Positions 23,469 to 45,849 of a stretch of 64,000 nt of DNA are shown here, one piece after another. A program made the translations under genes and the position numbers. Where the stretch lies: the NCBI RefSeq assembly GCF_014642835.1, contig NZ_BMJA01000003.1:479252-543251 (forward strand). The letters are read 5' to 3'. Under the pieces are notes generated by a model. The model was not told where the DNA came from, did no database searches, and worked only from the letters and a program-made list of their open reading frames with translations. Within the stretch, counting starts at the first letter, position 1. Every line of letters starts with the position of its first letter. This stretch comes from Dyella nitratireducens (GTDB taxonomy: Bacteria; Pseudomonadota; Gammaproteobacteria; Xanthomonadales; Rhodanobacteraceae).

Positions 23469-23543
23469 GTAGGTTGGGTTAGCGCAGCGTAACCCAACAA
23501 TGTCCGCCGAAATGTTGGGTTACGCTGCGCTAACCCAACCTAC
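23469..23543. repeat. GTAG-type paired REP element, family B (copy B1)
   Basis: Perfect ~31-bp arms, GTAGGTTGGGTTAGCGCAGC... and its reverse complement, around a 13-nt centre. Each arm itself folds (TTGGGTTA...TAACCCAA). The GTAG/CTAC boundaries and overall architecture are shared with family A, but the hairpin core differs. It lies between convergent fadD and the PilZ gene. Confidence 0.9.
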
Positions 23544-41419: not shown

Positions 41420-44025
<2,606 letters not shown>

Positions 44026-44036
44026 TCAGCCCATTT

Positions 44037-44111
44037 GTAGGTTGGGTTAGCGCAGCGTAACCCAACGATGCCGCCTCGAATGTTGGGTTACGCTGCGCTA
44101 ACCCAACCTAC
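44037..44111. repeat. GTAG-type paired REP element, family B (copy B2)
   Basis: Same perfect arms as copy B1 (GTAGGTTGGGTTAGCGCAGC...) around a different 14-nt centre. The right foot gives the TAG stop of the terpene synthase gene (44108-44110). Confidence 0.9.
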
Positions 44112-45124
44112 GGGCTAAGGACAGCGGGCAGTGCTCGTTCGACGAGAGCCGGCGGCTTTTGGCAAGTGGATGGAATTTGGCAGGTAATGCGCTTCCGGTC
44201 ATAGCGCGGGCAAACAAAATGCCAATAACTGAAACCCTCGGCCATGTGAAGCATGAGCCGGCCCCACCCTTGCAGCCCGGCAGGCAGTGCATCGACCAAG
44301 GCTGACAGTTTCGCCAACTCCGTGCGGCACATGCCAACCACCCGGTCGTATGCCGATTCGACATCGCATTGATGCCGGTTCTGAACCAGCGCAACGAGAT
44401 TTACGCGATCGGCGTCCTTTTCCACACTTACCAGTTCATTCACGATAGCGACGACGGCGGACGCCGCCATCACGACGCGCCGGGCCACCGGCACGCAATC
44501 CACGTCCCCAACATCCAGATCGAGAAGCTGCGCGGTAGGAATCACGCCGATCGTGACGAGGCGCCTGCGTAGATGAGACCAAGGATTCACCACGCCAGCC
44601 GAACATACGGACTGATTTTCGCAGGCGACCGTCTTCACCCAGGTACCCATCTTTCGATTGAGCCGGTGCAGATAGTCGGGAGAAACGCCCAATCCTTTGT
44701 AGCCTTCTACGATCGACCTCCAAGCTCGTAGATAGGGGTCCTTTTCGTGCCAGGTGCCGCTATCCCATCGAAATGCATTCGCCAAGCCATGCAAGATGGC
44801 ACTCAGATCCGTGGCCCTTTCCACCACCACGTCGTCCCAGAGCAACCATAAGGTGATGTATTTCGAATACAGCAAAAGCTCTTCGTTTTTGGCAAAGGGA
44901 TGTGAAAAGCCTGCGTATCCCCACACCGCCATGTTGCTCACGCTTTCTAGATAACGCTCATCAGGGATAAGGCCCGAGACCTCCATCCAGGCAATCGTTT
45001 CGCGCTCTACTTCATACGCATAGGGCGAAAGTTTCACATGCGAAAGACTTAGCTTATGGCGTACAGGCATGCGCGAGCTCGCCGGAGCCTGCATCCGCAA
45101 CTCGTTAACCGAATCCATTCCCAT
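44108..45124 (-). CDS. Class I terpene synthase (bacterial sesquiterpene/monoterpene cyclase type)
   Basis: Predicted to ionise and cyclise an isoprenyl diphosphate such as FPP or GPP. All functional motifs of bacterial terpene cyclases are visible: Asp-rich DDVVVE (D97, D98, E102; the DDxxxE form), pyrophosphate-sensor Arg in SHLRRRLVTIG (186-188), an NSE-like triad NELVSVEKD (N229, S233, D237; the last ligand is Asp rather than Glu), and the C-terminal W...RY pair (W301, R307-Y308). Length 338 aa. GAGGTGG precedes ATG 45124. Stands alone; no P450 or methyltransferase adjoins it. Base composition looks lower in GC than its neighbours, consistent with transfer. The product cannot be predicted. 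Confidence 0.85.
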   Translation of the reverse strand: MGMDSVNELRMQAPASSRMPVRHKLSLSHVKLSPYAYEVERETIAWMEVSGLIPDERYLESVSNMAVWGYAGFSHPFAKNEELLLYSKYITLWLLWDDVVVERATDLSAILHGLANAFRWDSGTWHEKDPYLRAWRSIVEGYKGLGVSPDYLHRLNRKMGTWVKTVACENQSVCSAGVVNPWSHLRRRLVTIGVIPTAQLLDLDVGDVDCVPVARRVVMAASAVVAIVNELVSVEKDADRVNLVALVQNRHQCDVESAYDRVVGMCRTELAKLSALVDALPAGLQGWGRLMLHMAEGFSYWHFVCPRYDRKRITCQIPSTCQKPPALVERALPAVLSP

Positions 45125-45382
45125 CGTCCACCTCGTGTGGCGAGAAGTGACTGCAGCAACGAATGACTATCGACAAGGCGACACGTACCACCTAGCGCAT
45201 TCACGCTCCGAGCGGCACTCGCAACTTAGGAGTCGCACCCGTATCGGCACGCAGCTGATGCTATGCGTGCAGCTATAAACCTTGGAATAAATTGCCGTTA
45301 AAAACCTAATCGGCAACGTGTCCCCCTTCTTATTTCATGCAATTCATTTCGAGCACTACGCCGCAGCAAAGAAGCTGCGCAT
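45125..45382. other. Upstream region of the terpene synthase gene
   Basis: Gene-free stretch, richer in A+T than its surroundings, between the terpene synthase start and the cyo terminators. It contains an inverted repeat TTGCCG (45292-45297) / CGGCAA (45311-45316). On the minus strand the second arm could serve as a -35 with an AT-rich -10 17 bp on, but the match is weak. Confidence 0.35.
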
Positions 45383-45408
45383 AAAAAAAGCCTCCCGCAC
45401 GGGGAGGC
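45383..45408 (-). terminator. Distal intrinsic terminator of the cyo operon
   Basis: Minus-strand stem GCCTCCC / GGGAGGC followed by seven T's. A second terminator-like hairpin lies about 30 bp nearer cyoD. Confidence 0.9.
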
Positions 45409-45430
45409 TCATTCTTCGGGTCGGTACAAA

Positions 45431-45467
45431 AAGACCCACGATCCCGCCCACAGAGATGGGCGGGATC
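45431..45467 (-). terminator. Proximal terminator of the cyo operon
   Basis: Perfect 10-bp stem GATCCCGCCC / GGGCGGGATC immediately after the cyoD stop, with TTTTT a few bases downstream on the minus strand. In tandem with 45383-45408. Confidence 0.75.
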
Positions 45468-45477
45468 GCATACGCCT

Positions 45478-45849
45478 TTAGCCGATGCTTGAGGACATGG
45501 ACTGCGTCACCGGATGCATCATGTAGAGGTTCATGTTGTGCATCACCCACAACGAACCCACCACCACGATGGCGATGATAAGCAAGGTGAATACGCCGAT
45601 CGACAGGTTGTCGCGCTGCCCCGGGGCAGCGCTCATGTGCAGGAAGAACGCCAACTGCACCAGCAACTGCGCAATGCAGAACACCACGATGCCCGGCGCC
45701 ACCAGGTGCTGCGGCACTGCCCCGCTCATCACGCAGCCGAACGACAGCACCGTGAGAATCAGCGACAGCGCAAAGCCGACGGTGTAGCTCTTCAGGCTAC
45801 CGTGTGCGTTGTGTGCGTGGGCATCAGAATGACCATGTTGGCTCGACAT
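45478..45849 (-). CDS. cyoD: Cytochrome o ubiquinol oxidase subunit IV
   Basis: Small assembly-related subunit of the bo3 quinol oxidase. 123 aa with a His-rich N-terminus (HGHSDAHAHNAHG) and three transmembrane helices (VGFALSLILTVLSFGCVM, VVFCIAQLLVQLAFFLHM, LLIIAIVVVGSLWVM). Last gene of cyoABCD; cyoE (haem O synthase) does not follow. Confidence 0.95.
   Translation of the reverse strand: MSSQHGHSDAHAHNAHGSLKSYTVGFALSLILTVLSFGCVMSGAVPQHLVAPGIVVFCIAQLLVQLAFFLHMSAAPGQRDNLSIGVFTLLIIAIVVVGSLWVMHNMNLYMMHPVTQSMSSSIG

Follow-up and report, generated by a model that had tools for sequence, protein, structure and literature searches.

A putative class I terpene synthase of Dyella nitratireducens from an apparently uncharacterised clade of Pseudomonadota

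We analysed a stretch of 64,000 nucleotides of the Dyella nitratireducens genome (contig NZ_BMJA01000003.1, positions 479,252 to 543,251; hereafter the window), which carries a terpene synthase gene on the minus strand at window positions 44108..45124. The product of this gene is quite likely a functional class I terpene synthase with a single domain, and a member of a distinct, seemingly uncharacterised Pseudomonadota clade that is marked by TLWLLWDDxxxE plus NExxSxxKD. The basis for this reading is the family of the protein, its predicted fold, its motifs, the selection acting on it, its fixed genomic site, and the presence of relatives in isoprenoid gene clusters. The synthase looks like an old gene, patchily lost and under selection. 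A preliminary description of this DNA had presented it as an orphan and acquired gene, an interpretation that our results support in part.

A terpene synthase gene outside the named families

The open reading frame (ORF) begins with ATG and encodes 338 amino acids; an alternative start at M3 (window 45118, minus strand), used in the database copy P0001, gives 336. Its score against PF19086 (Terpene_syn_C_2) is 60.6 bits, for a curated Pfam cut-off of 23.7, and a protein search returned 23 more proteins at E≤1e-3 beyond P0001, which is the window protein's own copy. The ratio of nonsynonymous to synonymous divergence (dN/dS) is 0.216 with D. acidisoli, 0.220 with D. monticola, 0.143 with a metagenome-assembled genome (MAG, G150) and 0.174 with D. 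lipolytica; values of 0.14-0.22 in four comparisons indicate that the protein is under purifying selection. The family score, the homologues and this selection, all well above chance, confirm the ORF as a genuine terpene synthase gene. The alignment of the family and the structural matches agree with this assignment, and the predicted fold has the alpha domain expected of class I terpene synthases.

The protein does not belong to any named synthase family for which NCBIfam has a model. We compared it with characterised synthases through NCBIfam model scores and matches to solved structures, and every NCBIfam cut-off was missed, the best score being 42.1 bits against a cut-off of 400. The sesquiterpene models for delta-cadinene, isoafricanol, 4-epi-cubebol and 7-epi-alpha-eudesmol gave 42.1, 33.3, 27.3 and 24.6 bits (equivalog cut-offs of 400-680), and the model of 2-methylisoborneol synthase and encapsulin cargo terpene cyclase (NF041167) gave 37.1 bits (cut-off 400). 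With a single PF19086 stretch in 338 residues, it also lacks the two terpene synthase domains of geosmin synthases. None of the solved structures is close in sequence, and the listed structural matches share 14-22% identity with it. Among the matches listed in a search of titles and starts of abstracts in the open-access literature, which left most subscription journals outside, we found no paper on this clade and no study of a terpene synthase from Lysobacterales (Xanthomonadales). The enzyme kind is thus a known one, of which we regard the protein as a new and apparently uncharacterised member: it reaches no NCBIfam family, has no near solved structure, and belongs to a clade on which no paper was found.

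Catalytic motifs and the third metal ligand

All the catalytic motifs named in the preliminary description could be located, and their conservation was read from an alignment of 25 rows (24 distinct proteins, P0001 being the window's own). The Asp-rich metal-binding motif, DDVVVE (residues 97-102; 44819..44836, minus strand), has the DDxxxE form, and D97, D98 and E102 are invariant in 25 of 25 rows. The putative diphosphate-sensor Arg, R188 in helix G1 (44561..44563, minus strand), is invariant and aligns with the Arg of solved synthases. The second metal-binding motif, NELVSVEKD (residues 229-237; 44414..44440, minus strand), has invariant N229, E230, L231 and D237, with S233 and K236 at ≥90%, and the C-terminal motif W301xxxxxRY (44201..44224, minus strand) has invariant W301, R307 and Y308. 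The protein therefore has the elements by which class I terpene synthases are recognised: an Asp-rich motif of the DDxxD/E or DDxxxE type, an Asn-Ser-Glu (NSE) site in its expected place with N229, S233 and an acidic third ligand (D237), and a sensor Arg with an RY pair. This supports the earlier view of a class I terpene synthase with the DDxxxE form in a genome of Dyella (Rhodanobacteraceae).

The same description had pointed to Asp instead of Glu as the third NSE ligand, and this holds. Position 9 of the second motif is Asp in all 25 rows. A deeper search with this alignment, in which scoring covered the 7998 candidates with the most shared words, yielded eight further, distant sequences, none of them a named and characterised synthase; in the seven that were read (the eighth, a 173-aa fragment, was left out) position 9 is also Asp, and three of the seven have Gly in place of Ser. 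In contrast, the column is Glu in the five solved synthases that were aligned among the ten listed structural matches (two T-muurolol synthase chains, terpene cyclase 6, 10-epi-cubebol synthase and an SVS variant). Asp throughout the family and its distant relatives, set against Glu in the aligned solved synthases, shows that this ligand is real and a trait of the family. It also appears outside it. Among 33 Pseudomonadota rows of PF19086 aligned by script, nine represent the family of the window protein (some genes twice) and all have Asp; the other 24 rows correspond to 22 distinct genes, several of them partial matches, with Asp in 11, Glu in 9, Met in 1 and Asn in 1. PF19086 does not, then, demand the strict consensus (N,D)D(L,I,V)X(S,T)XXXE that is given for this motif in PMC7192455. 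NELVSVEKD departs from it twice, by Asp at position 9 and by Glu230 at position 2, which is unusual, although terpene cyclase 6 likewise has NE. A study of mushroom linalool/nerolidol synthases mentions an 'NSD triad' (PMC11740858), but we do not read this as proving that a natural enzyme with N-S-D is active.

The synthase at the cyoD-pyrG site

The synthase lies between two fixed neighbours, with the same order across synthase-bearing loci: cyoD, for a cytochrome o oxidase subunit, upstream (45478..45849, minus strand) and pyrG, for CTP synthase, downstream (42250..43923, minus strand). The cyoABCD genes of cytochrome o oxidase are on one side and pyrG-kdsA-eno-ftsB-truD on the other (these names, and that of pepP, are our presumed assignments, judged from the translated sequences). 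We found the synthase at this site in five of the 16 genomes of the genus, its syntenic copies sharing 87% protein identity with the window protein in D. acidisoli, 68% in D. monticola, 67% in the MAG contig and 62% in D. lipolytica. In ten genomes there is no synthase at the site, and the matches to cyoD and pyrG are 130-191 bp apart; the remaining one (G017) has no cyo gene within the 6 kb fetched beside pyrG. Relative to a near empty site (G104), the extra stretch comprises the synthase and flanking DNA, approximately 43989..45439 as judged from the edges of BLASTN matches. A locus labelled Candidatus Eremiobacteraeota (L014) has the gene content and order of Dyella and probably comes from a mislabelled MAG.

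We placed the presence of the synthase on a tree of its flanks (cyoA-D and pyrG in 15 genomes, with G017 left out and a 24-residue extension cut from the pyrG reference). The pattern implies four changes of state; shuffled labels gave a mean of 4.4, and 238 of 500 shuffles were as low. In the gene tree, which has just one strongly supported branch, the five copies follow the order of the flank tree, and the protein identity of the synthase drops as flank divergence grows. Synonymous divergence (dS) of the synthase from D. acidisoli is 0.304, compared with 0.357 for cyoB, 0.433 for cyoA, 0.528 for eno and 0.749 for kdsA. From the three farther relatives it is 0.96, 1.53 and 1.57, where five flank genes give 0.46-1.04 for these pairs. 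This set of dN/dS and dS values leaves out two synthase pairs with undefined dS, and four pyrG comparisons with D. acidisoli that are an apparent artefact (protein identity of about 8%, for 98% in tblastn), most likely because a spurious upstream extension of the pyrG reference contains stop signs that shifted the codons. The synonymous divergence of the synthase fits an old presence, without tracking the flanks closely. The presence pattern is most simply read as a single gain with repeated loss afterwards, the gene probably having occupied the cyoD-pyrG site since early in the genus.

Exchange by way of the flanks is a serious rival to this history, if an unlikely one. The synthase would have spread within the genus by homologous recombination via the conserved cyo and pyrG flanks, and its presence would reflect this exchange and not ancient descent followed by loss. 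That the four changes are about as many as under shuffled labels is in line with such exchange, and so is the loose tie of synthase dS to that of the flanks, slightly lower for D. acidisoli and reaching higher values elsewhere. However, the higher values may also stem from weaker codon bias, protein identity declines with flank divergence, and gene and flank trees share their order, even if a single branch is strongly supported.

Recent horizontal acquisition of a gene flanked by terminators and a repetitive extragenic palindromic (REP) element, as the preliminary description had it, is improbable. It could account for the patchy presence, for the four changes of state and for the lower GC content that the description had rightly noted (56.4%, for 60.3% in the window), along with a GC content at third codon positions (GC3) of 0.64 that is below the 0.74-0.84 of eight of the nine neighbours measured. 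Yet low GC3 is not unique to the synthase (truD has 0.585), and such composition is no demonstration of recent arrival. The window genome and four others share one site at 62-87% protein identity, the dS from D. acidisoli is only slightly under that of the flanks, and the two collections searched, in which records near the window genome may be left out, gave no plasmid or phage match to the synthase. We thus rejected recent transfer on synteny and congruent trees, and an origin in a mobile element on the lack of matches in these two collections.

Rarity and relatives beyond Dyella

The preliminary description had called terpene synthases rare in this order, and the genomes sampled bear this out: PF19086 has matches in 13 of 398 genomes of Lysobacterales, 12 of them over the cut-off, and in 11 of 398 genomes sampled across the phylum (the window genome is counted in both). 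Two relatives have telling neighbourhoods. In Burkholderia multivorans WS-FJ9, a protein with 38% identity to that of the window (P0022, L017:5938-6903) has its gene immediately behind dxs (two ORFs), ispH, ispG and dxr, with two further PF19086 genes after it; here we take the Pfam families found beside it to be these precursor genes. In another genus of Rhodanobacteraceae (G006), the gene of a relative with 33% identity lies between Rieske oxygenase and cytochrome P450 genes, with a LuxR-type regulator nearby. Such surroundings speak for a function in terpene biosynthesis. When the clade was placed on a tree rooted with the four paralogues of the window genome, the outgroup branches were very long and the deep forks open, and only the inner groups were used.

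As a whole, the B. multivorans locus (L017:54-9606) groups three PF19086 genes with dxs, ispH, ispG and dxr, and so forms a terpene cluster that carries precursor genes of its own. Another Rhodanobacteraceae genome has four PF19086 matches within 14 kb (G094:C1:2759577-2773473; L065, L071-L073).

Predicted activity and substrate

Cyclase activity is a prediction, and the mechanism we propose follows the general course of terpene cyclisation. D97/D98/E102 and N229/S233/D237 would hold three Mg2+ ions, to which an acyclic prenyl diphosphate would bind through its diphosphate group, while R188 and R307-Y308 would sense this group and close the active site. Ionisation would then give an allyl cation, to be cyclised in the helical pocket. 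The structural neighbours make a sesquiterpene from farnesyl diphosphate (FPP) the best guess: by this analogy, the putative synthase would most likely cyclise FPP from the housekeeping pathway to a volatile sesquiterpene hydrocarbon or alcohol, which may be released without further tailoring because no tailoring gene is adjacent.

Several points weigh against this interpretation of the gene, beginning with the ten empty sites described above. Asp serves as the third metal ligand, and our alignment puts Thr191 at the linker position of the effector triad, where Asp is reported for selinadiene synthase (PMC9018054). FPP as the substrate rests on analogy, and the structural matches also include diterpene and monoterpene synthases, such that geranyl diphosphate (GPP), geranylgeranyl diphosphate or another prenyl diphosphate could be used. 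A scan of 43900-45500 for sigma-70-like promoters found none. Finally, for two relatives, one from a Duganella MAG (L016) and one from Paraburkholderia (L018), no terpene or tailoring gene was recognised among the scanned neighbours.

The other PF19086 genes of the same genome bear on both activity and substrate. The genome (5.68 Mb) has five such genes, including the window synthase, which is close to none of the others (20-22% identity, and 13% for the C6 gene). The 'orphan' of the preliminary description thus stands alone in its neighbourhood, where no pathway gene adjoins it between the cyo operon and the pyrG-kdsA-eno flank, and not in its genome. The C2 paralogue keeps DD, the N-S-E triad and RY. 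The C5 paralogue (L009:6918-7982) has lost the NSE triad (S-H-D) and RY, as well as the sensor Arg as aligned; it is about 76% conserved in two other genomes of the genus (L026, L027; three species in total), with a dN/dS of 0.15-0.17, and each time adjoins a gene resembling that of HMG-CoA synthase (own copy L009:8192-9751). It is possibly a repurposed non-cyclase. The C6 paralogue (L010:7055-8065) has no recognisable Asp-rich or NSE motif and is degenerate or repurposed.

A paralogue that stays under selection after losing its NSE and RY residues, as aligned, together with the Asp third ligand, could suggest that the window protein too has the terpene synthase fold without cyclase activity, as a hydrolase or binding protein. 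We consider this very improbable, given that the family varies little or not at all at the remaining catalytic positions, that the same Asp occurs in other PF19086 proteins of Pseudomonadota, and that one relative sits in an isoprenoid-precursor cassette (that of B. multivorans). A functional cyclase is still what we expect.

About 11-13 kb before the window start, on the same contig, a methyltransferase ORF overlaps a terpene cyclase (L007:5213-7145, G000:C3). The former matches GPP 2-C-methyltransferase (445.3 bits, cut-off 400; about 12-13 kb before the window), and the latter scores 386.7 bits with the model of encapsulin-cargo terpene cyclases, just under the cut-off of 400 (about 11-12 kb before). 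The locus appears to be a 2-methylisoborneol-type C11 pathway. The methyltransferase was found in one of 147 Rhodanobacteraceae genomes, that of the window, and horizontal acquisition is more plausible for this locus than for the window synthase. That the window enzyme draws 2-methyl-GPP from this methyltransferase and makes a C11 terpenoid is the least probable alternative of all, despite their common contig, since the methyltransferase overlaps its own partner synthase and had no match in three other synthase-bearing genomes checked (G066, G092 and G038, with G150 left out).

Other features of the locus

A REP-like perfect inverted repeat, with 30-nt arms (44037-44066 and 44082-44111) and a 15-nt loop, covers 44037..44111, in accordance with the REP foot described earlier. 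The TAG stop of the synthase (44108-44110) is inside one arm, and the tail before it is not conserved in the family alignment, which together suggest that the element may have set the C-terminus. A second copy of the repeat is at about 23469-23543 of the window.

The gene had also been placed between terminators. Two terminator-like hairpins (45388..45410 and 45437..45470, minus strand) do follow cyoD upstream of the synthase, a number not above the 2.0 expected in shuffles of the region; downstream we found none, that side being occupied by the REP hairpin. A Shine-Dalgarno-like AGGTGG upstream of the start (45128..45133, minus strand) is largely invariant in an alignment of the five loci and probably serves this role; beyond this region the alignment revealed no firm conserved promoter. 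The window has no Rfam family at gathering scores and no tRNA.

Significance

The terpene chemistry of Lysobacterales appears little explored, and the five PF19086 genes of one genome form a compact set for testing it. Since the site is fixed and naturally empty in close relatives, sister species can be compared directly for volatiles, and the N-S-D triad offers a clean test of the requirement for Glu as third ligand. A broader proposal, which we regard as possible but doubtful, is that the clade (Dyella, another genus of Rhodanobacteraceae and Burkholderiales, with TLWLLWDDxxxE and N-S-D) makes a terpene skeleton new to bacteria, the Asp metal site reshaping ionisation, and that this is an old and repeatedly lost volatile trait in Dyella.

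Comparison with known systems

The window protein shares 18-19% identity with (+)-T-muurolol synthase of Roseiflexus castenholzii (PDB 9hqi, 9hqd), whose triad is N-S-E, with Glu, and whose product is known, and 17% with 1-epi-cubenol synthase of Nonomuraea coxensis (PDB 9hqb). It is equally distant (17%) from the N-terminal domain of geosmin synthase (PDB 5dz2), a two-domain enzyme, unlike the single domain of 338 residues studied here. Its best NCBIfam match is the model of (-)-delta-cadinene synthase (NF052294), of which, at 42.1 bits for a cut-off of 400, it is not a member. The protein from the B. multivorans cassette of methylerythritol phosphate (MEP) genes, P0022, shares with it TLWLLWDD, the DDxxxE form and NELxSVEKD, and differs in sitting within a precursor cassette with two more synthases.
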